Shown here piece after piece: positions 34,051-52,435 of a DNA stretch of 64,000 nt. Position numbers and translations under genes: made by a program. Source of the stretch: Blastococcus saxobsidens (GTDB lineage Bacteria; Actinomycetota; Actinomycetes; Mycobacteriales; Geodermatophilaceae); contig NZ_JAAGWG010000001.1 in NCBI RefSeq assembly GCF_010682065.1, positions 124,001-188,000 on the forward strand. Reading direction: 5' to 3'. The notes below the pieces were generated by a model. That model did no database searches and was not told the origin of the DNA. It saw only the letters and a list, made by a program, of their open reading frames with translations. The number at the start of each line of letters is the position of its first letter. Positions within the stretch are counted from its first letter, which is position 1.

Positions 34051-34272
34051 TCGTGTCCGCGTCGCGCCCTCGCTCCGGGGGTGCTGTGCCCGCTCTCGGG
34101 CGCCTGCACGACAGCCCCAGCAGCGGTTGCACCCCAGAGGGACGCCGCGGAGAACTTTGCGATCGCGTGACAGACCGGCCGCAGGGGTGCCCCTCCCGGC
34201 TGCATCGGGCACAACGGGAGGCGGCCCCGTCGCGCGCGGGCGCCACCGTTGCCGCCTGCGCCGAGGAGTTCC

Positions 34273-37005
34273 GTGTCGCCCCGCCCCACCATCGACGGCC
34301 TGCCGCTGCCCGGCATCGAGCAGGCCACGGGGCCGATCCCGCGGCGCGCTCGGCACGGGCTGCTGGCCCGGCTGGCGCTGGCGGTCGTGCTGGCGGGTGC
34401 CCTGGTCGCGGCGTTCGTCGCCCCGGTCGTGGGCGGCGCCTCGTTCCTCACCCAGGCCGGCGCCGGCCTGCTGCGGCCGGTCGAGGCCGACCTGCTCGAC
34501 CGCACCCCGCCCGGCAACACCCGGATCCTCGCCGCGGACGGCTCGCTGATCGCCGAGCTCTTCCAGCGCAACCGCACCGTGGTGCCCGGGGAGGCGATCG
34601 CCCCGGTGATGAAGGACACCATCGTCGCCATCGAGGACAGCCGGTTCTTCACCCACAGCGGCGTGGACGGCAAGGGCCTGCTCCGGGCGCTGGTCCGCAA
34701 CGCCGCCGCCGGCGAGGTCGTCCAGGGCGGCTCGACGCTGACCCAGCAGCTGGTCAAGCAGATCCGCCTCCAATCGGCCGACGACGCCGCGTCCCGGCAG
34801 GCGGCCACCGAGCAGAACGTCGGCCGCAAGCTGCGCGAGGCGCAGCTCGCCCTGGCGCTGGAGGAGCGCTACGGCAAGGAGGAAATCCTCACCCGCTACC
34901 TGAACCGGGTGTACTTCGGCGCCGGTGCCTACGGGGTCGCGGCCGCCGCCGAGACCTACTTCGGCGTGACACCCGACGCGCTCACCCTCGCCCAGGCTGC
35001 CACCCTCGCCGGCCTGGTGCAGAGCCCCACTGCGTACGACCCCTTCGTCGCCCCCGAGCGGGCCACCGAGCGGCGCGACGTCGTCCTCGCCCGGATGGCC
35101 GAGCTCGGCATGGCCGACCCGGCCGCCGTCGAGGAGGCCCGCAGCGCTCCCGTCGTCCTCACGCCCGGCGAGGGCCCGCCGCGCGGCTGCCGCGAGGCGC
35201 GGATCGGCGGGTTCTTCTGCGACTACGTGCTGGACCACCTGACCGGCACCCTCGGCCTGGACCGCGAGCTGCTCGACACCGGTGGGCTCACCATCGAGAC
35301 CACGCTGGACCCGGCTGTGCAGCAGGCCGGCGACGCCGCCGTGCTGAACACGCTGGGCATGGGCGACCCGCGCGCCGGCATCTACACGGCGGTCGAGCCG
35401 GGCACCGGTCGGGTGCTCGCCATGTCGGTCAACCGGATCTTCGGTGCCGCCGAGGGCGACCCGGCGCGGACGACGGTGAACCTCAACGTGGTGGCCGGTC
35501 AGGGCGCCGGGTCCACGTACAAGGTGTTCACCGCGGCCGCCGCGCTCGAGCAGGGCATCGGCCTGGACCACCGCCTCACCACGTCGGACCCCTACGTGTC
35601 GGACATCTACCGCGACGGCGCCGGTCCCTACGACGTCGAGAACGCCGGCGGCTACCCGCGCACCCTGGACATGGAGGAGGCCCTCTACCGGTCCTCCAAC
35701 ACCTACTTCCTCGCCCTGGAGGACCAGCTCGGCAGCGTCGAGGGGCCGGTGCGGATGGCCCAGCGCCTCGGGCTGCGCTCCCTGGACCCCGTGGCCGACC
35801 AGGTGGTCGCCGAGAACCGGGGCTCCTTCACCTTCGGCGCCGAGGCCACCAGCCCTCTGCACCTGGCCAACGCCTACGCCACGCTCGCCGCGAGCGGCAC
35901 GCGCTGCGACCCCTCGCCGATCCACCGGGTCCTCGACCGGTCCGGTGAGCCGCTGCTCGCCGACGACGGCCGGCCGCTGGGTGAGCCGCGGTGCGAGGCC
36001 GACGTCGTCGCGCCCGGTCTGGCGCACACGCTCACCCAGGCGCTGCGCAAGGACGTCGAGCGGGGCTTCTCGGGGCAGACCGGCCGCCGCGCCTTCGTCC
36101 CCGGCCACCAGATCGCCGGGAAGACCGGGACCACCCAGAACAACTACTCGGTCACCTTCGTCGGGTACACACCGCAGGTGGCGGCGAGCGTGATGGTCTA
36201 CGACCCGGTGCGGAACCAGGACGTCGGCGGCTTCGGCGGCCTCATGCCCGCCCAGATCTGGCACGACGCCCTGCAGCCGGTGCTCGGCGCCCGGCCCGCG
36301 GTGCCGTTCCCGCCGGCCGACCCGCAGTACGTCGAGGGCACCCGCGAGACGATCCCGGCCGGCTGTGCCCGCCGGTCGGTCGACCGGTGCCGCACCCTGC
36401 TCGGCGCCCGCAACCTGGCCGCGTCCGTGGTGCCGGTCGACAGCGGCCTGGCGCCGGGGACGGTCGTCTCCGTGGACCCGCGGCCGGGCACCCTCGTGCA
36501 GAGCGGCCGCGCCGTGACGATGCTGGTCAGCAACGGCGCGCGCTGGACGCCGCCGCGGCCCGAGCCCGCCCCGGCACCTGCTCCTGCGCCGGCCCCCGCT
36601 CCTGCGCCGGCACCCACCCCGACGCCCACTCCCGAGCCGACGCCCACGCCGGAGCCCACGCCGACTCCTGAGCCGACGCCCACACCGGAGCCCACGCCGA
36701 CTCCCGAGCCGACCCCGACGCCGACTCCCGAGCCGACCCCGACGCCGACTCCCGAGCCGACGCCGACGCCGACTCCCGAGCCGACGCCGACTCCCGAGCC
36801 GACGCCCACGCCCGAGCCGACGCCCACGCCCGAGCCCACGCCCGAGCCCGCGCCGACGCCGGAGCCCACGCCTGAGCCGACGCCGCCCGCGCCCGCCCGA
36901 ACGCCGGAACCCACGCCCGAACCGGAGCCCACGCCCGAGCCCGGTCCGCAGCCGACGGAGCCCGCCCCGGAGACGGCGGAACCCACGGCCCCCGCGGGGG
37001 AGTAG
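34273..37005 (+). CDS. Class A penicillin-binding protein with PASTA domain and Pro/Thr/Glu tail
   Basis: A bifunctional peptidoglycan synthase of 910 residues. It has a membrane helix at about 30-55, then a GT51 glycosyltransferase with catalytic [16 protein letters not shown] (Glu121) and [12 protein letters not shown]. The transpeptidase follows with nucleophile motif STYK (near residue 414), SSN (near 474) and KTGTT (near 617). One PASTA domain lies at about 715-755 ([20 protein letters not shown]). A 155-residue tail of PEPTPT repeats ends the protein and probably spans the wall. The GTG at 34273 follows GAGGAG by 4 bases. The gene is preceded by tRNAs and is monocistronic. Confidence 0.95.
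36550..36990. repeat. Pro/Glu/Thr-coding repeats at the 3' end of the PBP gene
   Basis: First a short Pro-Ala run (GCCCCGGCACCTGCTCCTGC type), then many 6- to 24-base units such as CCGACGCCGACTCCCGAG that encode PEPTPT. Units are imperfect but clearly tandem, so length variation between strains is likely. Confidence 0.85.
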
Positions 37006-40163: not shown

Positions 40164-41288
40164 TTGGGGGCAGCGCTGACGAGCAGGTTCGAGCGGAACG
40201 CCGCATCGACGTGGACCACGTCGGCGCGGCCGGCCCGCGGCGCGCTCTCCGCCGGTGTCGTGACCGGCCTCCTCGCCGTGCTGATGGCCGGCGCCCTGGC
40301 CACGGCCGGCCCGGCCGCCGCCATCGAGGACCCCACCCGCCCGGACTCCCAGGTCACCCACGGGCCGAGCTGCCGCCCCGGCGGCATCGTCGTGGAGGTC
40401 GTCGCCGGCACGGCGTCCTACACGGTGCGGCTGGCGACGTCCCGCACACCCGCGGGCGAGGACGAGGTGACCCTGGCCCCTGGTGCGTCCGCGGTCCTGC
40501 AGACCGGCGACGTCGCCCCCGGCGAGACGATCGACCCGCGCCTGGAGTTCGCCGCGCTCGACGGCTCGGGCACCACCTACGTCGACGAGCTCGAGGACTA
40601 CACCCTCACCCGGCCGACGACCGAGGACTGCGAGGCGGCGACCTCCCCGCCGACGGTGCCCGCGCCGCCGCCCCCCACGGCCACCGTGCAGCCCGGCAGC
40701 CCGAGCCCCTCGCAGACCAGCCCCAAGCCCTCCACCACGTCGCGGCCCAGCGGCACCACCACGACGACCGCCGGCACCCCGACCACGGGCACCACGACGT
40801 CGCGGACGACGTACGGGCCCACCACCGGCACGCCGTCGCGCACGTCGGCCACGGTCGTGCCCTCCGTCGACGGGCCGGCCCGCGGGGACGGCCAGGAGGT
40901 CCTCGCCGGGGGCACGGTCTCCCTCCGGGGTGCGGGGTTCCTCCCGGGCGAGAAGGTCAACGTCCTGCTGCACGGCACCGACACGGTGCTGGCCACCGCC
41001 ACCGCCGGGACCGACGGTCAGGTGCACGTGGACGTGCTGATCCCCACCGGGGCGACGGCCGGCCCGGCCACCCTGGACCTCGTCGGGGTGGACTCCGCGC
41101 AGTCCACCGGGGTGCGGCTGCAGGTCGCCGCCGCCGAGCACGCGGTCGACCTGGCGCCGAGGGGAGCGGTGTCGCTGGCCTCGCTCATCGCGGCGGCGAC
41201 GGCGCTGGTCCTGACCGCGGCCGCGCTCGTCTCGGTCGCCGGGACGCGGCACGCCGAGCGACGTGAGCGCTCCACCGCCTCTTCCTGA
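40164..41288 (+). CDS. Secreted Thr/Pro-rich protein with C-terminal membrane helix
   Basis: About 374 residues. A signal-like helix (about residues 30-50) ends in PAAA-I. A beta-rich segment with one Cys pair follows (SCRPGG and EDCEAA, about 68-155), then a Thr/Pro/Ser-rich linker (about 155-235). An Ig- or IPT-like domain (GGTVSLRGAGFLPGEKVNVL) leads to a C-terminal helix and a basic tail. This is a surface protein anchored by its last helix; no LPxTG motif is seen. The start is uncertain: TTG 40164 is the longest, and GTG 40257 would leave a minimal signal. The 3' end may overlap the MarR gene. Confidence 0.75.
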   Translation: MGAALTSRFERNAASTWTTSARPARGALSAGVVTGLLAVLMAGALATAGPAAAIEDPTRPDSQVTHGPSCRPGGIVVEVVAGTASYTVRLATSRTPAGEDEVTLAPGASAVLQTGDVAPGETIDPRLEFAALDGSGTTYVDELEDYTLTRPTTEDCEAATSPPTVPAPPPPTATVQPGSPSPSQTSPKPSTTSRPSGTTTTTAGTPTTGTTTSRTTYGPTTGTPSRTSATVVPSVDGPARGDGQEVLAGGTVSLRGAGFLPGEKVNVLLHGTDTVLATATAGTDGQVHVDVLIPTGATAGPATLDLVGVDSAQSTGVRLQVAAAEHAVDLAPRGAVSLASLIAAATALVLTAAALVSVAGTRHAERRERSTASS

Positions 41289-41328
41289 CGGCGGTTTCGC
41301 CGTCCCCCGATCAGGGGACCCAGGGGCC

Positions 41329-41829
41329 GTGCAACGGTCCGAGGACGCGCTCGCGCGTGGAGTCCCGCGGGACGCCACCACTCTTCCCGGAGTCGCTCCC
41401 CGCCCCGCCGAGACGTGGCTGCGCATCGTGCAGGTGCACGACCGCATCACCCGGCGGGTCGACTCGGCGCTCCACCGCCACCACGACCTCTCGCTGACCG
41501 GGTTCGAGGCGCTGCGGCGCATCGCCGAGTCGCCGGACGGGCGCGCCTCGATGGGAGACGTCGCCGACGCCGTCGGGCTCTCCCGACCGGGGGTGACCAG
41601 CACCATCAGCCGGCTGGTCGAGCAAGGCCTGGTCGTCCGCGAGCGAGGGGGCGCCGACCGGCGGCTGCTGCACGCCCGCCTCACCGAGGCCGGGCGGAAC
41701 CGCGTCGAGGCCGCCGCCGGCACGCACGACGAGATGGTCGCCTCCCTGCTGGGTCTGCTCGGCGACGACGCCGCGCTGGTCACCGATGCGCTGGCGCGGG
41801 TCTCCGCGGCCACCCGCGACCGTCGCTGA
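41329..41829 (+). CDS. MarR-family transcriptional regulator
   Basis: A 166-residue winged-helix repressor. ETWLRIVQVHDRITRRVDSA begins the dimerisation helices, MGDVADAVGLSRPGVTSTIS is the recognition HTH, RLVEQGLVVRERGGADRRLL is the wing, and helices to the end complete the fold. Family members respond to small aromatic ligands. GTG 41329 follows AGGGG; GTG 41263, inside the previous gene, would add 22 residues. The gene directly precedes the heptose operon, so it might regulate it; that is inference. Confidence 0.85.
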   Translation: MQRSEDALARGVPRDATTLPGVAPRPAETWLRIVQVHDRITRRVDSALHRHHDLSLTGFEALRRIAESPDGRASMGDVADAVGLSRPGVTSTISRLVEQGLVVRERGGADRRLLHARLTEAGRNRVEAAAGTHDEMVASLLGLLGDDAALVTDALARVSAATRDRR

Positions 41830-41899
41830 CCGCTCGCGGAGCGCCCAGACGCTTCAAGCCCGTAGTTTTCGCCGTCCGGAGAACGGGCAGGACGCGATC

Positions 41900-43390
41900 A
41901 TGCTCGCGCAGGTGACCGTGGTCGTGCCGACGATCGGGCGTGCCTCGCTCGACGTCCTGCTCGACGCGCTCGCCGCTGCTCCCGGGCCGCGCCCGGCCGA
42001 GCTGATCCTGGTCGACGACCGGCCCACCGGCGAGCCGCTGCAGCCGGACCGTCCCGGGCTCCCGCCGGTCCGCGTCGTGCGCACCGGCGGCGGCGGGCCG
42101 GCCCGCGCCCGCAACCTGGGCTGGCGCAGTGCCCGCACCGAGTGGATCGCCTTCCTCGACGACGACGTCGTGACCGACCGCGACTGGTACTCCCGGCTGG
42201 AGAGCGACCTGGCCGACCTGCCGGCCGACGTCGCCGGCAGCCAGGGCCGGGTGCGGGTCCCGCTGCCCGGGCACCGTCGCCCCACCGACTGGGAGCGCGG
42301 CACCGCCGGGCTGGCCACCTCCAGCTGGATCACCGCCGACCTCGCCTACCGCCGCGCCGCCCTGGCCGCCGTCGGGGGCTTCGACGAACGCTTCCCGCGC
42401 GCCTTCCGCGAGGACTCCGACCTCGCCCTGCGCGTTCTGGACACCGGCTCCCGGCTGGTCCGCGGCGAGCGGTGGATCACCCACCCGGTCCGGCCCACCG
42501 ACCGCTGGGTCAGCGTGCGCGTGCAGGCCGGCAACGCCGACGACGTCCTGATGCGCCGGCTGCACGGCCGCGACTGGCGGGACCGGGCCGACGCCGCGCT
42601 CGGCCGCCGTCCGCAGCACATGGCGGTCACGGCCGCGGCGCTCGCCACGGTCGGTCTCGCCGCGGCCCGCCGGCCCCGCGCCGCGCTGGCCGCCGCGGCC
42701 GCCTGGGCCGCCGGCACCGGGGAGTTCGCCTGGCGGCGGATCGCCCCCGGCCCGAGGACGAGGGCCGAAATCGCCACTATGGCCCTGACGAGCGCCGCGA
42801 TCCCGCCGCTGGCCACCTGGCACTGGCTGCGCGGCGTCGTGCAGCACGTCGGCGTCCGTCGCTGGCGGGGCCTGCCCGACCTGGTGCTCTTCGACCGCGA
42901 CGGCACCCTGGTGCACGACTACCCCTACAACGGCGATCCGGAGTGGGTCCGCCCGGTGGACGGCGCCCGCGAGGCGCTGGACGCGCTGCGCGCCCGCGGC
43001 GTGAAGGTCGGCGTGGTCAGCAACCAGTCCGGCGTGGCCCGCGGGCTCATCACTCCCGACCAGGTGGACGCCTGCATGAAGCGGCTGGACGAGCTGATCG
43101 GCCCGTTCGACACCGTCCAGTACTGCCCGCACGGCCCCGACGACGGCTGCGACTGCCGCAAGCCAGCTCCCGGGATGGTCACCGCCGCCTGCGCCGAACT
43201 GGGCGTCGACCCCGCCCGATGCGTGGTGATCGGTGACATCGGTGCCGACGTCGAGGCGGCCGCCGCGGCCGGGTCGGCCGGGATCATGGTGCCCACCCCC
43301 GTCACCCGCCGCGAGGAGGTCGAGGCCGCGCCGCAGCGCGCGGAGACGCTGACGGAGGCGGTCGGGCGCGTCCTGGGCGGGCACTGGTGA
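41900..43390 (+). CDS. Glycosyltransferase family 2 fused to GmhB heptose-bisphosphate phosphatase
   Basis: A 496-residue fusion. Residues 1-230 are a GT2 domain: VTVVVPTIGRASLDVLLDAL, LVDDRP, FLDDDVVTDRDW and FREDSDLALRVL. A hydrophobic stretch lies at about 232-295. Residues 327-496 are GmhB: FDRDGTLVHDYPY (Asp nucleophile), SNQSGVARG, the zinc loop CPHGPDDGCDCRKPAPGM, and IGDIGADVEAAAAAG. GmhB dephosphorylates D-glycero-beta-D-manno-heptose 1,7-bisphosphate to the 1-phosphate. ATG 41900 has CAGGA 8 bases upstream. It is the first of seven genes joined by 4-nt overlaps. Confidence 0.93.
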   Translation: MLAQVTVVVPTIGRASLDVLLDALAAAPGPRPAELILVDDRPTGEPLQPDRPGLPPVRVVRTGGGGPARARNLGWRSARTEWIAFLDDDVVTDRDWYSRLESDLADLPADVAGSQGRVRVPLPGHRRPTDWERGTAGLATSSWITADLAYRRAALAAVGGFDERFPRAFREDSDLALRVLDTGSRLVRGERWITHPVRPTDRWVSVRVQAGNADDVLMRRLHGRDWRDRADAALGRRPQHMAVTAAALATVGLAAARRPRAALAAAAAWAAGTGEFAWRRIAPGPRTRAEIATMALTSAAIPPLATWHWLRGVVQHVGVRRWRGLPDLVLFDRDGTLVHDYPYNGDPEWVRPVDGAREALDALRARGVKVGVVSNQSGVARGLITPDQVDACMKRLDELIGPFDTVQYCPHGPDDGCDCRKPAPGMVTAACAELGVDPARCVVIGDIGADVEAAAAAGSAGIMVPTPVTRREEVEAAPQRAETLTEAVGRVLGGHW

Positions 43391-44388
43391 GCCGCACCGT
43401 GCTCGTCGCGCGGCTGGACAACGCCGGCGACGTGCTCCTCCAGGGCCCGCTGGTCCGCGCCGTCGCCGCCGGGGCCGACCGCGTGGTCGTGCTCGCCGGG
43501 CCCGCCGGCGCCGCCGCGGCGGAGCTGCTGCCCGGCGTGGACGAGGTCTGGACCTGGGCCTGCCCCTGGATCCTCGGCGACCCGCCGCCCGTGGACCCCG
43601 CCGACCTGGCCGCGCTCACCGCGCGGATCCGGGACCTGGCGCCCGACGAGGCGCTGATCTCCACGTCCTTCCACCAGTCGCCCCTGCCCCTGGCCCTGGT
43701 GCTCCGCGCGGGCGGCGTGCCCCGCATCTCGGCGATCAGCGTCGACTACCCGGGCTCGCTGCTCGACGTCCGGCACCGGGTCGAGGACGACCTGCCCGAG
43801 CCCGAGCGCGCGCTCTCCCTCGCCCGCGCGGCGGGGTTCGAGCTGCCCGACGGCGACGACGGGCGGCTCGCCGTCCGCCGCCCGTTGCCGGCGGTGGCGC
43901 ACGAGCCGGGCTACGTCGTGCTGCACCCCGGCGCCTCGGTGTCGGCCCGGGCCTGGCCGGCGCAGCGCTGCGCCGAGGCCGTCGAGGCGCTGGCCGACGC
44001 CGGGTACCGCGTGCTGGTCACCGGCGGGCCGGGCGAACGGGAGCTCACCGCCGCCGTCGCCGGCACCCGGGGCACCGACCTGGGTGGGGAGACCACGCTG
44101 GCCGAGATGGCGGCGCTGCTGGACGGCGCGGCCGCGGTCGTCGTCGGCAACACCGGACCGGCGCACCTGGCGGCCGCCGTCGGCACCCCGGTCGTCTCGC
44201 TCTTCGCGCCCGTCGTCCCCGCGGCCCGGTGGGCGCCCTACGGCGTGCCCACCGTGCTCCTCGGCGACCAGTTCGCCGCCTGCCGCGACACCCGGGCCCG
44301 CGAGTGCCCGGTGCCCGGCCACCCCTGCCTGACCTCGGTGACGGCGCAGGACGTCGTCGCCGCCGTGGAGAAGCTGGTGAGCGCGTGA
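43387..44388 (+). CDS. Glycosyltransferase family 9 (heptosyltransferase-like)
   Basis: A 333-residue GT-B protein of the ADP-heptose transferase family. SRTVLVARLDNAGDVLLQGP is the typical start with the catalytic Asp (N-A-G-D), and YVVLHPGASVSARAWPAQRC is the donor domain entry. LVTGGPGERELT and VVVGNTGPAHLAAAVGTPVV follow, where family members bind ADP-heptose. The start GTG overlaps the GmhB-fusion stop (GTGA) and the stop overlaps the next start. It probably transfers heptose onto a glycan or other acceptor. Confidence 0.92.
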   Translation: MSRTVLVARLDNAGDVLLQGPLVRAVAAGADRVVVLAGPAGAAAAELLPGVDEVWTWACPWILGDPPPVDPADLAALTARIRDLAPDEALISTSFHQSPLPLALVLRAGGVPRISAISVDYPGSLLDVRHRVEDDLPEPERALSLARAAGFELPDGDDGRLAVRRPLPAVAHEPGYVVLHPGASVSARAWPAQRCAEAVEALADAGYRVLVTGGPGERELTAAVAGTRGTDLGGETTLAEMAALLDGAAAVVVGNTGPAHLAAAVGTPVVSLFAPVVPAARWAPYGVPTVLLGDQFAACRDTRARECPVPGHPCLTSVTAQDVVAAVEKLVSA

Positions 44389-45365
44389 AGGTCCTGGTCT
44401 GGCACGTGCACGGCTCCTGGACGACGTCCTTCGTCCAGGGCGACCACGAGTACCTGATCCCGGTCACCCCCGGCCGCGACGCCGACGGTCTCGGCCGCGC
44501 CCGCACCTGGGACTGGCCGGCGTCGGCCCGCGAGGTGACCCCCGAGCAGCTGCGCGACGAGCACGTCGACGTCGTGGTGCTGCAGCGCCGACGCGACCTG
44601 GACCTGGTGCGCGAATGGCTGGGCCGCGAGCCCGGCCGGGACCTGCCAGCGGTCTTCCTCGAGCACAACGCGCCGGGGCTGGAGCCGGGCGACGGGCCGG
44701 TGCCGCACACCCGGCACCCGATGGCCGACCAGTCCGGCATCCCGATCGCGCACGTCACCTCCTTCAACGAGCTGTTCTACGACAACGGCCGCGCGCCGAC
44801 GACGGTCATCGAGCACGGCATCGTCGACCCGGGGGAGCGCTACACCGGGGAGCTGGCGCGGGCCGCCGTCGTCACCAACGAGCCGGTGCGCCGGGGCCGG
44901 ACCGTGGGCGCGGACCTGCTGCCCGGGCTGGCCGCCGCCGCGCCGGTCGACGTCTTCGGCATGGGGCTGGCCGGGCTGCACGAGAAGTACGGCCTGGACC
45001 CCGAGCGGGTCGCGCTGCACGACGACCCGCCGCAGGCGGCCATGCACACCGAGCTGGCCCGCCGCCGGGTCTACGTGCACCCGGTCCGCTGGACCTCCCT
45101 GGGGCTGTCGCTGCTGGAGGCCATGCACCTCGGCATGCCGGTGGTCGGCCTGGCCACCACCGAGGCGGTGGAGGCGGTCCCGGCCGAGGCCGGCGTCCTC
45201 TCCACCAGGCCGGACCGGCTGTGGGAGGCCGTGCGGCACTTCGTGGACGACGAGGACGCCGCCCGGCTGGCCGGCAAGGCCGCCCGCGCCGCCGCGCTGG
45301 AGCGCTACGGCCTGGCCCGATTCCTGCAGGACTGGGATCGCCTGCTCGGAGAGGTGACGCGATGA
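44385..45365 (+). CDS. GT-B glycosyltransferase
   Basis: A 326-residue transferase. VKVLVWHVHGSWTTSFVQGD starts a GT-B fold, FLEHNAPGL follows, and the donor domain has GMGLAGLHEKYG and then WTSLGLSLLEAMHLGMPVVG, an EX7E-like element. It lacks much of the usual N-terminal domain detail, so the family (GT4 or near it) is only probable. It is coupled at both ends by GTGA and ATGA overlaps. Sugar unknown. Confidence 0.85.
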   Translation: MKVLVWHVHGSWTTSFVQGDHEYLIPVTPGRDADGLGRARTWDWPASAREVTPEQLRDEHVDVVVLQRRRDLDLVREWLGREPGRDLPAVFLEHNAPGLEPGDGPVPHTRHPMADQSGIPIAHVTSFNELFYDNGRAPTTVIEHGIVDPGERYTGELARAAVVTNEPVRRGRTVGADLLPGLAAAAPVDVFGMGLAGLHEKYGLDPERVALHDDPPQAAMHTELARRRVYVHPVRWTSLGLSLLEAMHLGMPVVGLATTEAVEAVPAEAGVLSTRPDRLWEAVRHFVDDEDAARLAGKAARAAALERYGLARFLQDWDRLLGEVTR

Positions 45366-46576
45366 GGATCGACCTGGTCAGCGAGCACGCCAGCCCGCTC
45401 GCCGCGATCGGCGGCGTCGACGCCGGCGGGCAGAACGTGCACGTCGCCGCACTGGCCGCCGGGCTCGCGCAGCGCGGGCACGAGGTCACCGTGCACACCC
45501 GCCGGGACGACGCCGCGCTGCCCGAGCGGGTCGTGGTGCAGGACGGCTACAACGTCGTCCACGTGACCGCCGGCCCGCCCGAGCCGCTGCCCAAGGACGA
45601 GCTCCTGCAGCACATGCCGGCGTTCGCGCGGGTGCTGCGGCACGGCTGGGCCGCGGCCCGGCCCGACGTCGTGCACGCCCACTTCTGGATGAGCGGTCTG
45701 GCCTCGGTCGAGGCCTCGGCCAGCCTGCTCTCCCCGGTGCCGGTGCTGCAGACCTTCCATGCGCTCGGCTCGGTCAAGCGGCGCCACCAGGGCGACGCCG
45801 ACACCTCGCCCGCCGAGCGCATCGACCTCGAGCGCGGGCTGTGCCGCGACGTCAGCCACGTCGTGGCCACCTGCTCCGACGAGGTGTTCGAGCTGCGCCG
45901 CCTCGGGCTGACCACCGACCGCGTCTCGATCGTGCCCTGCGGCGTGGACACCGCGGTGTTCACCCCGCGCGGCCCGGTCGCCCCGCGCGGGGACCGCAAG
46001 CGCCTGCTGGTGCTCGGCCGGCTGGTCGAGCGCAAGGGGCAGGACGACGCCGTCCGCGCCCTGCGGGCCGTGCCCGACGCCGAGCTCGTGGTCGTCGGCG
46101 GGCCTGCGCCCGACGCCGTCGACGCCGATCCCGAGGTGCGGCGGCTGCGCGGCATCGCCGCCGAGGCGGGGGTGGCCGACCGGCTGGTGTTCGCCGGCTC
46201 GGTGGCGCGCGCCGACGTCCCCGCCTGGGTGCGCTCGGCCGACGTCGTCCTCGCCGTGCCCTGGTACGAGCCGTTCGGCATCACCCCGCTGGAGGCCATG
46301 GCCTGCGGGCGGCCCGTCGTCGCCACGGCGGTCGGCGGGCTGCAGGACTCCGTCGCCGACGGCGTCACCGGCGACCTCGTCCCCCCGCGGGACCCCGCGC
46401 GCCTGGGTGAGGTGCTCGCCGCGCTGCTGGCCGACGACGAGCGCCGGGCCGCCTACGGCTCGGCCGGCGTGCGGCGGGTGCGTGCCCGCTACCGCTGGGA
46501 CCGCGTCGTGGCCGACACCGAAACCGTCTACCGGCAGGTCCTCGCCCGCCGCCGTCCCGTGGAGGTCGCCCGATGA
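45362..46576 (+). CDS. Glycosyltransferase family 4
   Basis: A 404-residue GT4 enzyme. IDLVSEHASPLAAIGGVDAG and GQNVHVAALAAGLAQRGHEV form the sucrose-synthase-like GGxxxxV start, and DVVHAHFWMSGLAS follows. KRLLVLGRLVERKGQDDAVR opens the donor domain, and PWYEPFGITPLEAMACGRPV is the EX7E motif. It resembles actinobacterial GT4 proteins near heptose or mannose loci; the donor is uncertain. The start overlaps the previous stop (ATGA) and its stop overlaps gmhA. Confidence 0.92.
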   Translation: MRIDLVSEHASPLAAIGGVDAGGQNVHVAALAAGLAQRGHEVTVHTRRDDAALPERVVVQDGYNVVHVTAGPPEPLPKDELLQHMPAFARVLRHGWAAARPDVVHAHFWMSGLASVEASASLLSPVPVLQTFHALGSVKRRHQGDADTSPAERIDLERGLCRDVSHVVATCSDEVFELRRLGLTTDRVSIVPCGVDTAVFTPRGPVAPRGDRKRLLVLGRLVERKGQDDAVRALRAVPDAELVVVGGPAPDAVDADPEVRRLRGIAAEAGVADRLVFAGSVARADVPAWVRSADVVLAVPWYEPFGITPLEAMACGRPVVATAVGGLQDSVADGVTGDLVPPRDPARLGEVLAALLADDERRAAYGSAGVRRVRARYRWDRVVADTETVYRQVLARRRPVEVAR

Positions 46577-47271
46577 GCATCCCCCCGCACTCCTTCCGCG
46601 AGAACGTGGTCGCTCAGGGGACGGCCGCGGCCTTCCCCCAGCCCGACACCTGCACCCACCTCACCGGTGCCGACCACGTCGCGTCGCTGACCGCGGCGCT
46701 GGGCTCGCTGAACGCCCAGCTGCCGGCGCTGGACCGTTGGGGCCGGCTGGTCGCCGAGGTGCTGTGCGGTCCCGGGCGCGGCCGCCTGCTGGCCGCGGGC
46801 AACGGCGGCAGCGCCGCGCAGGCCCAGCACCTCACCGCCGAGCTGGTCGGCCGCTACCGGGCCGACCGGCCGCCGTTCTCGGCGATCTGCCTGACCGCCG
46901 AGACGTCGTCGCTGACCGCGATCGCCAACGACTACCCGGCCGACGAGCTGTTCGCCCGCCAGGTGGAGGCACACGGCCGCCCCGGTGACGTGCTGGTGCT
47001 GCTGTCCACGTCCGGACGCTCGCCGAACGCCGTCGCCGCGGCCCGCCGGGCGCAGGAGTGCGGCATCACGGTGCTGGCCATGACCGGGCCGGCACCCAAC
47101 CCGCTGGCCGCCGTGGCCGACGACGCCGTCGCCATCGACTCGCCGTGGACCGCCACCGTGCAGGAGTGCCACCTGGTCGCCCTGCACCTGCTCTGCGCCG
47201 CGTTCGACGAGGCGGTGCTCGCCGAGCCGGCGCGGGTGCCGACCGGCCCGTCCTTCGAGGCGGCGAAGTGA
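46573..47271 (+). CDS. gmhA: Sedoheptulose-7-phosphate isomerase (GmhA-like SIS protein)
   Basis: Converts sedoheptulose 7-phosphate to D-glycero-D-manno-heptose 7-phosphate. In the 232-residue protein the SIS fold has LLAAGNGGSAAQAQHLTAEL (phosphate loop), CLTAETSSLTAIANDYPADE and VLLSTSGRSPNAVAAARRAQ. A conserved HLVALHLLCAAFDEA helix near the end carries the catalytic His. Placement between GT4 and hldE supports the assignment against other SIS proteins. It is coupled to its neighbours by 4-nt overlaps. Confidence 0.92.
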   Translation: MSIPPHSFRENVVAQGTAAAFPQPDTCTHLTGADHVASLTAALGSLNAQLPALDRWGRLVAEVLCGPGRGRLLAAGNGGSAAQAQHLTAELVGRYRADRPPFSAICLTAETSSLTAIANDYPADELFARQVEAHGRPGDVLVLLSTSGRSPNAVAAARRAQECGITVLAMTGPAPNPLAAVADDAVAIDSPWTATVQECHLVALHLLCAAFDEAVLAEPARVPTGPSFEAAK

Positions 47272-48644
47272 CCGAGCGGCCGCTTGTCGTCGTCGGCGAC
47301 GCGCTGCTCGACGTCGACCTGGTCGGCAGCGCGTCCCGGCTCACCCCCGACGCGCCGGTGCCGGTGGTCGAGGGCATCGAGCGCCGGGAGCGCCCCGGCG
47401 GCGCGGCGCTGGCCGCGGTGATCGCGGCGGCGGCCGGCACCCGCGAGGTCGTGCTGATCGCCCCGATCGACTCCGACGAGGGCGCCGTCCGGCTGCGGGA
47501 GCTGCTCGCCGGCCGGGTGCGGCTGATCGAGATCCCGGCGACCGGGGGCACCTCGGTGAAGCAGCGGCTGCGCGTGGGGGACCACTCCGTCGCACGCCTG
47601 GACAGCGGCGCGCCCGTCGCGACCCTCGGCCCACTGCCCGCCGAGGCGGCCGCGGCGATCCGGGACGCCGCCGCGGTGCTCGTCGCCGACTACGGCCGCG
47701 GGACGACGGCGGCGGCCGACGTCCGGGACGCACTGGGCGCCGCCCGCGGGCCGGTCGTGTGGGATCCGCACCCCCGCGGCGCGGACCCGGTGCCGAACGC
47801 CCGGCTCGTCACGCCCAACGGCGCCGAGGCCGCCCGCGTGGCCGCCGACGCGACCGGCACCGGGCTGGCCGTCGTCGGGGCCCGGGCGGAGGCGCTCATC
47901 CGGCAGTGGGAGGTCGGCGCCGTCGCCGTCACCCTCGGTGCCCGCGGCGCGCTGCTCTCCTACGGCTCCGGGGCGCCCATGGTCGTGCCGGCCGTCGCGG
48001 TCACCGGCGGCGACCCGTGCGGCGCCGGCGACTCCTTCGCCGCCGCCGCCGCGCTGGCCCTGGCCGACGGCGCGGTGACCGGCGAGGCGGTGGCCGCGGC
48101 GGTCGCCTTCGCCTCGGCCTTCGTCGCCCGCGGTGGAGCGACGTCCTGGGACGCCGCCGGGCCCGCCGGGCCCGCCGCACCGGAGGGCGCGGCCGAGCCC
48201 GGCGCCGAGGCCGTCCTCGCCCGGGTGCGGGCCGCTGGCGGCACGGTCGTCGCCACCGGGGGCTGCTTCGACCTGCTGCACGCCGGCCACGTCGCCACGC
48301 TGCGCGCCGCCCGCGGGCTGGGGGACTGCCTGGTGGTCTGCATCAACTCCGACGACTCGGTGCGCCGGCTCAAGGGCCCCTCGCGTCCGCTGGTGACCGC
48401 GCCGGACCGGGCGCGCGTGCTCGAGGCGCTGGAGTTCGTCGACGCCGTCGTGGTCTTCGACGAGGACACCCCCGCCGAGGTGCTCGACCGGCTGCGGCCC
48501 GACGTGTGGGCCAAGGGCGGCGACTACGCCGGCGCGGACCTGCCCGAGGCCGCGGTGCTGCGCACCTGGGGCGGGCAGGCCGTCGTGCTGCCCTACCTCG
48601 ACGGGCACTCGACGACCGCACTGGTCGAGCGCTCCCGCGTGTGA
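47268..48644 (+). CDS. hldE: Bifunctional heptose-7-phosphate kinase / heptose-1-phosphate adenylyltransferase (HldE)
   Basis: Phosphorylates heptose 7-phosphate at C1 and later adds AMP to give ADP-heptose. Of 458 residues, the N-terminal PfkB-type kinase (about 1-300) has RPGGAALAAVIAAAAGTREV and the catalytic GGDPCGAGDSFAAAAALALA (Asp near 254). The C-terminal nucleotidyltransferase (about 325-458) has GCFDLLHAGHVATLRAARGL and WAKGGDYAGADLPEA. This matches E. coli HldE (RfaE) domain order and length (477). The GTG start overlaps the gmhA stop and the stop overlaps the GT9 start. Confidence 0.94.
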   Translation: MTERPLVVVGDALLDVDLVGSASRLTPDAPVPVVEGIERRERPGGAALAAVIAAAAGTREVVLIAPIDSDEGAVRLRELLAGRVRLIEIPATGGTSVKQRLRVGDHSVARLDSGAPVATLGPLPAEAAAAIRDAAAVLVADYGRGTTAAADVRDALGAARGPVVWDPHPRGADPVPNARLVTPNGAEAARVAADATGTGLAVVGARAEALIRQWEVGAVAVTLGARGALLSYGSGAPMVVPAVAVTGGDPCGAGDSFAAAAALALADGAVTGEAVAAAVAFASAFVARGGATSWDAAGPAGPAAPEGAAEPGAEAVLARVRAAGGTVVATGGCFDLLHAGHVATLRAARGLGDCLVVCINSDDSVRRLKGPSRPLVTAPDRARVLEALEFVDAVVVFDEDTPAEVLDRLRPDVWAKGGDYAGADLPEAAVLRTWGGQAVVLPYLDGHSTTALVERSRV

Positions 48645-49633
48645 ACCACGACCACCCCGAGCTTTTCCGCGGAAAAGCCGACGTGAGTTTCCGCGGAAAA
48701 GCTCGGCCGACTGCGGTCGTGCTGCGGCCGCTCGGGCTGGGCGATCTCCTCACCGGCGTCCCTGCCATCCGCGCGGTCCGGGCCGCCGTGCCCGACCACC
48801 GGCTGGTGCTCGCGACCACCGAGCCGTTGCGCCCGCTGGCCGAGCTGATCGACGCGGTGGACGAGGTGCTGCCCGCCCGCGAGCTGGAACCGCTGGACTG
48901 GTCCGGTCCGCCGCCGGAGCTCGCCGTCGACCTGCACGGCAAGGGTCCGGCATCGCACGTCGTCGTCGCCGACCTGGCGCCCGCCCGGCTGCTCACGTTC
49001 GACAGCCCCGGCTACCCCGGGCCCACCTGGTACGCCGACGAGCACGAGGTCCGGCGCTGGTGCCGGCTGGTCGCCGAGGGGCTCGGCGTCGAGGCCGACC
49101 CCGACGCGCTCGACCTCGCCGTCCCGGCCGTGCCGCCGCCGGTGCGCGACGCCGCCGTCGTCCACCCCGGCGCCGCACATCCCGGCCGGCGGTGGCCACC
49201 GGACCGGTTCGCCGCCGTCGCCCGGCACCTCGCCGACGCCGGGCACGACGTGCGGATCACCGGCGGCCCGGCCGAGGTGGAGCTCGCCCGCTCCGTCGCC
49301 GCGGCGGCCGGGCTGGGCGAGGACGCGGTGCTGGCCGGCCGGACGACCTCCGTGGAGCTCGCCGCGGTGGTGGCGGCCGCACGCGTGGTGGTGTGCGGCG
49401 ACACCGGCGTCGCCCACCTGGCCACCGCCTACCGGCGACCGTCGGTGGTGCTGTTCGGGCCGGTGTCCCCGGCGCTGTGGGGCCCGCCGGCGCGAGCCGG
49501 GGAGCGCGGACCGCTGCACGTCGTCCTCTGGCACGGGGACGGCACCGGCGACCCCTGGGGCACCGAGCTCGACCCCGCCCTGGCGCGCATCACCGTCGAC
49601 GAGGTCACCGCCGCCCTGGACCGCCTCCCCTGA
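48641..49633 (+). CDS. Glycosyltransferase family 9 (heptosyltransferase-like), second copy
   Basis: About 330 residues, same family as 43387-44388. VVLRPLGLGDLLTGVPAIRA is the N-terminal motif, DLHGKGPASHVV follows, VVHPGAAHPGRRWPPDRFAA opens the donor domain, and VVCGDTGVAHLATAYRRPSV is the nucleotide-sugar region. GTG 48641 overlaps the hldE stop. It would put ELFRGKADVSFRGKAR, encoded by a 46-bp palindromic element, at the N-terminus. A GTG at 48719 would skip that element but break the overlap pattern. It is the last gene of the operon; a second copy of the element covers its stop. Confidence 0.9.
   Translation: MNHDHPELFRGKADVSFRGKARPTAVVLRPLGLGDLLTGVPAIRAVRAAVPDHRLVLATTEPLRPLAELIDAVDEVLPARELEPLDWSGPPPELAVDLHGKGPASHVVVADLAPARLLTFDSPGYPGPTWYADEHEVRRWCRLVAEGLGVEADPDALDLAVPAVPPPVRDAAVVHPGAAHPGRRWPPDRFAAVARHLADAGHDVRITGGPAEVELARSVAAAAGLGEDAVLAGRTTSVELAAVVAAARVVVCGDTGVAHLATAYRRPSVVLFGPVSPALWGPPARAGERGPLHVVLWHGDGTGDPWGTELDPALARITVDEVTAALDRLP
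48659..48704. repeat. 46-bp palindromic element, copy 1
   Basis: Contains TTTTCCGCGGAAAA and TTTCCGCGGAAAA in inverted and direct relation, framed by GAGCTTTT and AAAAGCTC, so the whole element and each half are palindromic. It lies in frame within the first codons of the GT9 gene. The same element recurs at 49632-49677. Confidence 0.9.
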
Positions 49634-49677
49634 GCTCTTCCGCGGAAACTCTCACGAGGGTTTCCGCGGAAAAGCTC
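49632..49677. repeat. 46-bp palindromic element, copy 2
   Basis: Aligns without gaps to 48659-48704 over 46 bases; the right 17 bases (TTTCCGCGGAAAAGCTC) are identical and most differences are in the spacer. It starts at the GT9 stop codon and runs into the stop of the convergent VWA gene, so it may also work as a bidirectional terminator. Confidence 0.9.
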
Positions 49678-51307
49678 AGTCGCGCTGGCGGAGGGCGTCG
49701 AAGAGCACGGTCTGCAGGTCGTTCTCGTCCACCGCCGAGTAGGCAGCGCCGCCGGTGGCCTCGGCGATCTGCTCCAGTGCCGACAGGTCGGCGTCCGGGC
49801 CGAGCGCCACACCGATGACCTTGATCGGCCGGTCGGGATCGGCCCCGGCGGCCAGCTCGATGAGCAGGTTCTCCAGGGAGAGGCCGGCCTCGTCGTCCTC
49901 GTTCGTGCCGTCGGTGAGGACCAGCACGCTGTTGACCGCGGTCGGGTCGTAGTCGTCCCGCGCCGCCTGCACGGCGGCCAGCGTGGTGTCGTACAGGCCG
50001 GTGCCGCCGGGGGTGAGCCGGTCGGGGATGGTGTCCAGCTGGTCGTCGAGGATGTCGCGCTGGCTGGTGCCGTCGACGTCGGCGTCCAGCTCGCGGGTGG
50101 GCACCAGCGCCTCCCAGTCCTGGTCGCCGGCCAGCTCGTAGGCGAACACCCACAGGCCGAGCGCGAAGTCGCCCGGCACCAGGGTGAGGGTGCTCTTGGC
50201 GGCGTCCCGGGCGAGGGTGGCGCGGGTGCCGTCGCCCACCGGGGCCTTCATGGAGGTGGAGACGTCGAACACCGCCAGCAGTCGCGAGGGCGCGGCGAGG
50301 CTGGACAGCCGGGTCAGCAGCGCCTGGACCTGCTCCACGTCCATCGGCAGCGAGGCGGGCATCGCCTCGGCGATCCCGGAGTCACCGCCGGCCCGTGGCG
50401 GGGCGCCGCCCTCCGGGCCGCGGAACCCGGCCTCCCGCACGGCGACCGCCGCGTCGTCGGACTGCAGCCGGCGCACCACGGCCTCCACGGCCGTCTGCTC
50501 CGCGCCGGACGCCGACCCGACCCGCAGCACCGGGTAGTCCAGCGCCGGGGTGCCCTCGGCCGGGTAGACGGCGACCAGGTTCGCCTGGGTCACGGTCTCG
50601 TTCGCCGCGTACACCTCCTGCTCGCTCACCGGCACCAGCGGAGCGTCCGCGCCGCCCTCGGTGCCGGTCGCGAGTGCGTCGGCCGGGGAGGGGGCGGTGT
50701 TCCGGGCGGCGGAGAGCACGGCCTGCACGACGGCGTTGTCGGCGTCCTCGTCGCCGCCCAGCGAGCCGCGGACGGCGGCCAGCGCGGACAGCCCCTCTGC
50801 GCTCGCGGCCAGGTCCGGCACGGCCAGCGGGCGGCCGGTGCTCAGCGCCTGGCCCCACGTCGGAACCTCGCCGGCCCAGCCGAGCTCCTCGACCGCGGCC
50901 CGGCTGGTGGCCAGGACGACGGGGGAGGTCGCCATGGACCCCATCGGCTGCAGCTCGCCGTACCCGGAGCGGGCGGCCCACAGCGAGGAGTCGGGCACCC
51001 AGACGTCGGGCAGCGCCTCGGCCTCGAGGGCGCCCAGCGAGCCGGCGGTCTGCAGCGGCTCCTGCGCGGTGACCGCGGCGTCGACGCACACGTCGTCGTC
51101 GGTCGTGGGCACCTCGGCCAGCAGCTCCTCGGTGAGCCCACCGAGCTCCGGGGCGACCGTGACGTCGACCGTCACGCGGTCGCCGCAGCCACGGGTGGTC
51201 AGCCACCAGGTGAGCCCGCCCGCGAGCAGCAGCACGACGAGGCCTGCGGCGATCAGGACGGGGGGCACCGTACGGCGCTGGGCGGTGGGATCGGCGTGGC
51301 GGCCCAT
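49676..51307 (-). CDS. Membrane-anchored substrate-binding/VWA-domain protein
   Basis: A 543-residue protein. One N-terminal helix (about residues 16-36) is followed by a periplasmic-binding-protein-like segment (about 45-330, VWVPDSSLWAARSGYGELQP). A von Willebrand factor A domain with the MIDAS motif DVSTSM (near residue 347), a conserved Thr in GGTGLYDTTL and DGTNEDD closes it. Similar two-domain proteins are widespread in actinobacteria with no firm role; metal-dependent adhesion is assumed from the fold. ATG 51307 starts the protein. Its 3' end is shared with the palindromic element. Confidence 0.88.
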   Translation of the reverse strand: MGRHADPTAQRRTVPPVLIAAGLVVLLLAGGLTWWLTTRGCGDRVTVDVTVAPELGGLTEELLAEVPTTDDDVCVDAAVTAQEPLQTAGSLGALEAEALPDVWVPDSSLWAARSGYGELQPMGSMATSPVVLATSRAAVEELGWAGEVPTWGQALSTGRPLAVPDLAASAEGLSALAAVRGSLGGDEDADNAVVQAVLSAARNTAPSPADALATGTEGGADAPLVPVSEQEVYAANETVTQANLVAVYPAEGTPALDYPVLRVGSASGAEQTAVEAVVRRLQSDDAAVAVREAGFRGPEGGAPPRAGGDSGIAEAMPASLPMDVEQVQALLTRLSSLAAPSRLLAVFDVSTSMKAPVGDGTRATLARDAAKSTLTLVPGDFALGLWVFAYELAGDQDWEALVPTRELDADVDGTSQRDILDDQLDTIPDRLTPGGTGLYDTTLAAVQAARDDYDPTAVNSVLVLTDGTNEDDEAGLSLENLLIELAAGADPDRPIKVIGVALGPDADLSALEQIAEATGGAAYSAVDENDLQTVLFDALRQRD

Positions 51308-51448: not shown

Positions 51449-52435
51449 TCAGACAGCCTGGGCCCGGGTCGCGGCCAGGTGCCCGGCGAACCACTCGACG
51501 GTGCGGCGCAGCCCGTCCTCGGAGGGAACCCCCGGCTGCCAGCCCAGCAGCTCCCGCGCGCGGGTGGTGTCGGGGCGCCGGACCTTCGGGTCGTCGACCG
51601 GCAGGTCGATGAAGTCGATCGGCGACGACGAGCCGGTGAGCTCGACGATCCACTCGGCGAGGCGGAGCATCGACAGCTCGTCGGGGTTGCCGATGTTGAT
51701 CGGGCCGGGCTGGTCGGAGAACGCCATCGCGAGGATGCCGGCCACGGTGTCGTCGACGTAGCAGATCGAGCGGGTCTGCGATCCGTCCCCGGCGACGGTC
51801 AGCGGGCGGCCGTCGAGGGCCTGGCTGACGAACGCGGGGATGGCGCGGCCGTCGTCGGCCCGCATCCGCGGACCGTAGGTGTTGAAGATCCGGACGATGC
51901 CGGTGTCGGTGCCCTTGGAGGTCCGGTACGCGGTCGTCATGGCCTCGCCGAACCGCTTGGCCTCGTCGTAGACGCCGCGCGGGCCCACCGGGTTGACGTT
52001 GCCCCAGTACTCCTCGGTCTGCGGGTGCTGGAGGGGGTCGCCGTAGACCTCGGAGGTGGAGGCGAGGACGTACCGGGCCTGCTTCTCGTGCGCGAGGCCG
52101 AGGGTGTGCAGGGTGCCGAGGCTGCCGACCTTGAGCGTCTCGATCGGCATCCTGAGGTAGTCGATCGGGCTGGCGGGGGAGGCGAAGTGCAGGACCAGGT
52201 CCACCTCGCCGGGTACGTGCACGAACTCGCTGACGTCACAGCGGACGAGCCGGAACCCGGGGTGCTCCATCAGGTGCAGCACGTTGTCCGGTGAGCCGGT
52301 GAGGAAGTTGTCCAGGCAGACGACCTCGACGCCGCGTTCGAGCAGCTGCTCGCACAGGTGGGAGCCCAGGAAGCCCGCTCCTCCGGTGACGACCGCCCGG
52401 CGGATCGTGCGTGGCTCGCGTGCCGGTCCGGTCAC
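51449..52435 (-). CDS. UDP-glucuronate decarboxylase (UDP-xylose synthase type)
   Basis: Oxidises and decarboxylates UDP-glucuronate to UDP-xylose (or the 4-keto product). The 328-residue SDR has [20 protein letters not shown] (NAD site), [20 protein letters not shown], and [16 protein letters not shown] with the YxxxK catalytic pair and the family-typical Arg. [10 protein letters not shown] and RSICYVDD follow. These motifs place it with UXS rather than with GalE or HldD. The GTG at 52435 has GAGGAGG 6 bases upstream. The product could feed the nearby glycosyltransferases. Confidence 0.9.

Follow-up and report, generated by a model that had tools for sequence, protein, structure and literature searches.

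The closest described counterpart of the gene cluster analysed here is the cwg operon of Streptomyces coelicolor, which comprises cwgA-L (sco6179-6190; PMC5839063), is a vancomycin-induced target of sigma-E whose promoter has been printed (Tran et al. 2019), and, according to later published passages, including one in Tran et al. 2019, was assigned the synthesis of a cell-wall glycan as a predicted function in 2002. Where these passages deal with individual genes, cwgD is named a dehydratase, cwgH (sco6186) a putative phosphoheptose isomerase and cwgI (sco6187) a putative bifunctional synthase/transferase (PMC5839063), and cwgE is called a putative heptosyl transferase (PMC5882110). We analysed an operon at positions 41900-49633 of a 64,000-nucleotide stretch of Blastococcus saxobsidens DNA (hereafter the window; bases 124001-188000 of contig C14, in a genome of 4.09 Mb and 77 contigs that is 91% complete) and found that it almost certainly belongs to the cwg family, as the form of that family found in Geodermatophilaceae. 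The S. coelicolor operon was reportedly the subject of a paper by Hong et al. in 2002. A preliminary description of the window had presented the operon as its best candidate for an under-described system, a view not supported here, since the operon is orthologous to S. coelicolor cwg, whose genes already bear heptose-type names in the published passages. The system is real, well conserved, partly described and not of a new kind; what is added here is its identification as cwg, the dispersal of cwgB and cwgK/L, an Asn/Asp split between its two GT9 proteins, a His-type HldE and a single-copy promoter-like element.

The limits of the operon in the preliminary description proved exact, with the GT2 start codon at 41900 and the last stop codon ending at 49633; in between stand seven plus-strand genes, each neighbouring pair of which overlaps by 4 bases. 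The first (41900-43390) encodes a CwgC-CwgD fusion, in which a GT2 glycosyltransferase (41900-42871) is followed by a GmhB-type heptose bisphosphate 7-phosphatase domain (42872-43387), as recognised by Pfam/NCBIfam models and a PDB sequence match. It is followed by CwgE (43387-44388), a heptosyltransferase-like GT9 protein termed GT9a; CwgF (44385-45365), a GT-B glycosyltransferase of the GT4 type termed GT4a, which served us as cluster marker; CwgG (45362-46576), an MshA/sucrose-phosphate-synthase-like GT4 protein termed GT4b; CwgH (46573-47271), the sedoheptulose 7-phosphate isomerase GmhA; CwgI (47268-48644), the two-domain heptose 7-phosphate kinase/heptose 1-phosphate nucleotidyltransferase HldE; and CwgJ (48641-49633), a second heptosyltransferase-like GT9 protein, GT9b. 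CwgA, a short-chain dehydrogenase (SDR) of the UDP-glucuronate decarboxylase (UDP-xylose synthase, UXS) type, is encoded at 51449-52435 on the minus strand. The fusion of GmhB to GT2 and the two GT4 genes had gone unnamed in the preliminary description.

The likeness to S. coelicolor cwg was judged via S. coelicoflavus and the published gene names. Twelve genes were counted in one direction at the S. coelicoflavus locus (L128), namely UXS, carbamoyltransferase, GT2, GmhB, GT9a, GT4a, GT4b, GmhA, HldE, GT9b, GT2 and GT2, and positions 4, 5, 8 and 9 of this order agree with the published cwg gene names. The published cwg promoter lies 5' of UXS at this locus with 3 mismatches in 27 (0 in 100 shuffles), and a divergent polysaccharide deacetylase gene, whose crudely called start overlaps the promoter, is present as at sco6178. 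The reading of the second gene as CwgB rests on a 71-72% identical protein of the window's genome. In that genome, a CwgB carbamoyltransferase is encoded at C22:26611-28239 (72% identical to the S. coelicoflavus protein) and a tandem CwgK/L-like pair at C75:76306-78056 (67% identity for CwgL, about 46% for CwgK). Homologs of all twelve families cwgA-L occur in the window's genome, where they are split over three sites, with A and C-J inside the window and B and K/L elsewhere. Both operons share the C-J order, the heptose enzymes at D, H and I and the GT9 proteins at E and J. Unlike in S. coelicolor, a single collinear operon was not found in the window's genome, where C-J are collinear, with cwgC fused to cwgD, and cwgA stands in inverted orientation behind a gene with a VWA-like product. 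Other contigs carry cwgB and cwgK/L, and the window has a different promoter-like element in place of the sigma-E site, which is missing.

The dispersed genes nevertheless accompany the cluster. CwgB at 66% identity or more was detected in 30 of 39 cluster-bearing genomes versus 1 of 37 others, which were picked among genomes lacking either HldE or GT4a, and K/L-like GT2 proteins in 24/39 versus 1/37. Thus, even without linkage the cwg genes usually, albeit not always, occur together as a single pathway. The CwgK/L-like pair shares its strand with a GT4 gene, a methyltransferase gene and a sub-threshold squalene-cyclase-like gene (L211, 9107-14083, on contig C75 of the window's own genome); the genes beside the pair on C75 are perhaps further parts of the glycan pathway.

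We also compared the heptose synthesis enzymes with profiles, solved structures and their relatives, the motif counts referring to relatives that passed a coverage filter, with locus L083 dropped. GmhA scored 148 bits with TIGR00441 gmhA (cut-off 209) and matched phosphoheptose isomerase among solved structures at 1.1e-37; its QExH....H motif is kept in 113/114 relatives and the GNGGSA...H...E pattern in 107/114. HldE passed rfaE_dom_II (184.1 bits, cut-off 181.5), the sole heptose-specific model passed in the operon, and scored 124 bits with rfaE_dom_I (cut-off 345). Its kinase domain matched heptose 7-phosphate kinase (1.3e-16) and its transferase domain an entry named putative cytidylyltransferase (1.1e-35), and the HxGH and GAGD motifs are kept in all 106 relatives. 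The GmhB domain reached 121 bits with PRK08942 (cut-off 178), passed broader HAD-IIIA models, also matched HisB phosphatase/dehydratase models, and matched heptose bisphosphate phosphatase in the PDB at 1e-22; the metal loop CxH..CxC was found in 109/110 relatives and DxDG(T/V) in 102/110. This domain is fused to GT2 in 24/25 Geodermatophilaceae loci versus 29/64 other loci holding both domains. As predicted from these sequences, the four synthesis activities for ADP-D,D-heptose (isomerase, kinase, phosphatase and nucleotidyltransferase) are present with their catalytic motifs, in agreement with the preliminary description, which had named GmhA, a GmhB domain and HldE on the basis of such motifs.

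The epimerase HldD was not recognised. The best match to TIGR02197 in the window's genome (91% complete, so a gene not recognised there is not necessarily absent) was an SDR at C2:14333 with 111 bits versus a cut-off of 274.6, for which it was rejected as HldD; HldD over cut-off was found in 0 of 39 cluster-bearing genomes, and a control search exceeded it in 2 of 14 well-known genomes. The SDR at 51449 was likewise rejected as the epimerase, being of the UXS type (1.7e-100 to 2b69, UDP-glucuronate decarboxylase 1). Since no HldD was recognised, the sugar should stay in the D,D form. These results agree with the earlier statements that the window has no HldD, that UDP-glucuronate decarboxylase motifs are carried by the SDR at 51449 and that ADP-D,D-heptose is the expected donor.

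Concerning the nucleotide, the motif (F/L)XXGRSTT marks heptose nucleotidyltransferases that accept several nucleoside triphosphates, and promiscuity does not strictly need its Arg, according to passages in PMC11461863 and PMC11573728. HldE of the window reads YLDGHSTT, with His in place of that Arg, and differs in this from the promiscuous STTR5 heptose nucleotidyltransferases. The other 26 loci of Geodermatophilaceae, two of which represent the same strain, all have His here; of 80 loci outside the family, 64 have Arg. Because His replaces the promiscuity Arg, ADP-heptose appears the likelier donor made by the operon. A second HldE, about 40% identical, was noticed in several genomes, including those of L059, L068, L077 and L078; in some genomes it lies 5-10 kb from a cwg-type cluster near GT9-like genes, which hints at a second heptose pathway.

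Other described heptose systems share parts of this operon. The Gram-negative ADP-heptose pathway for the lipopolysaccharide (LPS) inner core (GmhA, HldE, GmhB, HldD and WaaC/WaaF/WaaQ) has the same four synthesis steps and the GT9 fold, but the operon here comes without an HldD over cut-off, its GT9 proteins fall far under the LPS cut-offs, and one of them carries Asn at the position of WaaC Asp261. Actinobacterial NDP-heptose (nucleoside-diphosphate-heptose) synthetases were reportedly described by Tang et al. in 2022. Passages in PMC11461863 and PMC11573728, through which Tang et al. 2024 on NDP-heptose enzymes in actinobacteria is known to us, describe a septacidin pathway that resembles the operon in that NDP-beta-D-manno-heptose is made in actinobacteria; the tridomain isomerase/kinase/transferase described there differs from the window, where GmhA and HldE are separate overlapping genes.

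Regarding the glycosyltransferases, both GT9a and GT9b passed Pfam GT9, and GT9a gave a profile match to WaaC at 7e-18. The AlphaFold model of GT9a (predicted local distance difference test score, pLDDT, 92.5) has a heptosyltransferase fold; WaaF ranks first and WaaC fourth in its list of fold matches, which also includes TibC. At the alignment position of WaaC Asp261, Asn is present in 114/114 GT9a proteins, and Asp in 87/91 GT9b proteins, the remainder being three unread by the pattern and one Trp. In WaaC, we regard Asp261 as a donor-site residue; Lys192, too, has a known role in that enzyme. Owing to this Asn, the donor of GT9a may not be ADP-heptose, and GT9b, which keeps the Asp, is the safer candidate heptosyltransferase. 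The preliminary description had called both proteins heptosyltransferase-like, which calls for caution as to the donor of GT9a. Neither protein reached the equivalog cut-offs of LPS heptosyltransferases I, II and III (best scores 76.3 of 170.2 for GT9a and 74.2 of 185.3 for GT9b), and their membership in these groups was rejected. GT4a, with 66% mean column identity in its alignment, was modelled (pLDDT 91.6) as a GT-B fold near GT4 enzymes including PimB' and BshA. GT4b scored 216 bits with TIGR03449, under the cut-off of 462, and its best PDB matches were Tll1590 (6e-61) and 3c4q (MshA; 1e-49). By hydropathy only, no clear transmembrane segment was seen in the five glycosyltransferases, the top 19-residue windows reaching at most 1.55 in GT2, GT4a and GT4b. 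Nothing within the operon was recognised as a protein for export, polymerisation or ligation.

In a sample of 394 genomes of the class, 94 had HldE homologs, and 20 kb were fetched around 40 HldE matches picked by best score and family spread rather than randomly. At more than 75% coverage, these 40 loci contained HldE (40), GT4a, GT9a and GT4b (38 each), GmhB (37), GT9b (36, including two doubtful cases, L083 and L071, in the latter of which the GT9a gene matched again), GmhA (33), GT2 (27) and UXS (26). Of the loci analysed, L083 contains another HldE without the cluster, L065 is a second copy in one genome, and L044 and L086 are one contig. Crude GC3-based (third-codon-position GC) gene calling missed some genes in favour of shadow frames, so genes were counted as present from tblastn or whole-genome searches. 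The exception is a short-chain dehydrogenase gene near HldE, which was counted from the crude calls in 18/40 loci and is not so placed in the window. The eight modules stand in one order in 25 of 27 Geodermatophilaceae loci (GT2 being cut by a contig end in two), the remaining L102 and L106 being cut by contig ends, and UXS lies downstream of GT9b on the opposite strand in all 25 loci of the family that reach it; in the class, UXS was inside the 20 kb in 26/40 loci. With the GT4a profile as marker, the cluster was detected in 39/396 genomes and 26/237 genera of the phylum, and the window's GT4a as query found it in 44/57 Geodermatophilaceae genomes; GT4a and GT9a are about 52-76% identical across families. 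The comparison across Geodermatophilaceae that the preliminary description had proposed thus gave a conserved cluster, and its actinobacterial host was borne out, the nearest named relatives at the locus being Blastococcus, Geodermatophilus and Modestobacter (best 80 of at least 586 matches). Actinobacteria are not known to make LPS.

Upstream of the operon we identified a promoter-like element at 41852-41889 on the plus strand, composed of the block CTTCAAGCCCGTAGT (41852-41866) and GGGCA (41885-41889) and ending 10 nucleotides before the start codon. The block, CTT(C/A)(A/G)AGCCCGTAGTGTTT, is near-invariant in 54 Geodermatophilaceae loci, which represent 43 distinct leaders because L044 and L086 are one contig and some genomes duplicate named loci. 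It lies 51-62 bases (95 in one case) before the GT2 start, is followed 14-15 bases later by GGGCA in 37 of the 43 leaders, and is present in all 24 of the 27 named loci of the family that hold upstream sequence. At up to 3 mismatches, the 21-bp element occurs as one copy per genome in 36/57 genomes of the family, with 0 in a reversed control; loci were taken at 30 of the 36 sites, and in every one the element is upstream of GT2. The 36 genomes fall among the 37 whose GT4a is at least 83% identical to that of the window, and the 37th is the window's own, where the element was not found at this threshold because its copy, which has lost a G, carries 4 differences. The element was absent from 7 genomes with GT4a at 61-72% identity and from 13 without GT4a. 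The arrangement GTTT-N15-GGG(C)A recalls what we take to be SigB/SigF-type promoters. A known Rfam RNA was rejected (two matches, both under gathering scores), and so was a regulon motif, given one copy per genome. A leader hairpin, GCCCG...CGGGC, was noticed by eye and is not claimed. A MarR-family regulator gene (41263-41829, plus strand) lies directly upstream of the operon; it need not regulate the operon, because L086 and L087 keep the element although the sequence upstream is unrelated.

Taken together, we consider it probable, at roughly 60%, that the operon makes a carbamoylated, D,D-heptose-containing envelope glycan with xylose. By homology, the synthesis enzymes would yield an activated heptose, which without HldD would stay D,D; GT9b, and possibly also GT9a, would transfer it, and the two GT4 proteins, GT2 and the distant CwgK/L would add more sugars, with UDP-xylose from CwgA as one donor. 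CwgB, from its separate locus, would carbamoylate a sugar. As the operon has no recognised genes for these steps, assembly on a membrane lipid, and export as well, would depend on other loci. The placement of the product in the cell envelope follows the regulation in S. coelicolor by sigma-E and vancomycin. The published passages on the cwg operon do not name its product; for Frankia, a salt-induced heptosyltransferase is reported in a passage of PMC5563000. A broader and more tentative proposal, which we hold to be somewhat less probable than its opposite, is that cwg represents a phylum-wide, previously unseen class of envelope glycan in Gram-positives, a carbamoylated, xylose-bearing D,D-heptose oligosaccharide that would be the actinobacterial counterpart of the LPS inner core and would aid the wall against glycopeptides and stress.

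Several observations weigh against the assignment to cwg and the envelope glycan. Searches of open-licence papers, judged by title and abstract, showed no chemical analysis that reports heptose from the wall of an actinobacterium, and the label 'cell wall glycan' is itself a prediction. Most of the heptose-specific models score under their cut-offs, and the soluble look of the glycosyltransferases is a matter of hydropathy alone, with windows of 1.77 in GT9a and 1.73 in GT9b, inside the core domain, that exceed the usual mark of 1.6. About 670 bases between the HldE and GT9b matches of the S. coelicoflavus locus hold no identified gene. CwgB at 66% identity or more is absent from 9/39 cluster-bearing genomes and K/L from 15/39, and at an E-value of 1e-20 CwgB-like proteins occur in 32/39 cluster-bearing genomes versus 4/37 others. 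The published sigma-E cwg promoter had no match at up to 11 mismatches in window 41430-41920, where no AAC-N15-18-(C/G)GTC site was found either, and at up to 9 mismatches it preceded the operon at only 6 of the 31 usable loci from other families, so that regulation may differ from that in S. coelicolor.

The same enzymes could instead make a soluble or secreted natural product, a carbamoylated heptoside akin to septacidin or an aminoglycoside, which we regard as unlikely. The glycosyltransferases look soluble by hydropathy (apart from the GT9 windows above 1.6), the operon has no recognised flippase, polymerase or wall ligase, and carbamoyltransferases and UDP-xylose synthases are also common in natural-product clusters. 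Heptose is moreover known in Streptomyces septacidin (passages in PMC11461863 and PMC11573728). However, the cluster is kept in 44/57 Geodermatophilaceae and 39/396 phylum genomes with about 52-76% identity of GT4a and GT9a across families, its S. coelicolor counterpart responds to cell-envelope stress in the published passages, and by eye no polyketide synthase or non-ribosomal peptide synthetase was seen among the recurrent neighbours of the 40 loci, most of these neighbours having had no profile search.

An O-heptosylation of surface proteins by GT9a and/or GT9b, in the manner of E. coli Aah/TibC, is less probable still. These autotransporter heptosyltransferases have a GT9-related fold and use ADP-D,D-heptose; TibC, which was crystallised with ADP-D-beta-D-heptose, is among the matches of the GT9a model, and GT9a matches TIGR04414 weakly, but at 20 bits versus a cut-off of 200, and WaaF and WaaC are closer folds. 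The operon also has several more glycosyltransferases than these systems, and their travelling with the cluster together with UDP-xylose synthase points to an oligosaccharide. That the operon is an LPS-core operon recently transferred from a Gram-negative is very improbable; although the characterised relatives of the heptose enzymes act in LPS synthesis, the marker, whose copies are highly identical to one another, is present in 26/237 sampled genera of the phylum, the LPS heptosyltransferase models score far under their cut-offs and no hldD is over cut-off. This explanation was rejected on the spread over the phylum rather than on a tree, and an envelope glycan containing D,D-heptose is the reading we retain.

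Some neighbouring genes were also noted. The gene at 40164-41288 (plus strand) encodes a protein without Pfam match that looks secreted, is rich in proline and threonine and has a hydrophobic stretch at its C-terminus; similar genes (34-73% identity) precede the operon at many loci of Geodermatophilaceae. Between GT9b and UXS, at 49676-51307 (minus strand), lies the gene for a protein that looks membrane-anchored and matches VWA weakly, below the threshold; it is so placed in 23/25 loci of the family. A penicillin-binding protein of class A, whose PASTA match is below the threshold, is encoded at 34249-37005 (plus strand), with about 5 kb between the end of its gene and the operon downstream, and a similar gene is found upstream in some relatives, e.g. 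L088-L090.

The conjunction of a complete NDP-D,D-heptose pathway with a carbamoyltransferase and a UDP-xylose synthase amounts to a concrete chemical prediction, and the same system spans much of Actinomycetota. If the prediction is true, a heptose-bearing envelope glycan would bear on antibiotic stress, on phage adsorption and on the innate immune sensing of heptose metabolites.

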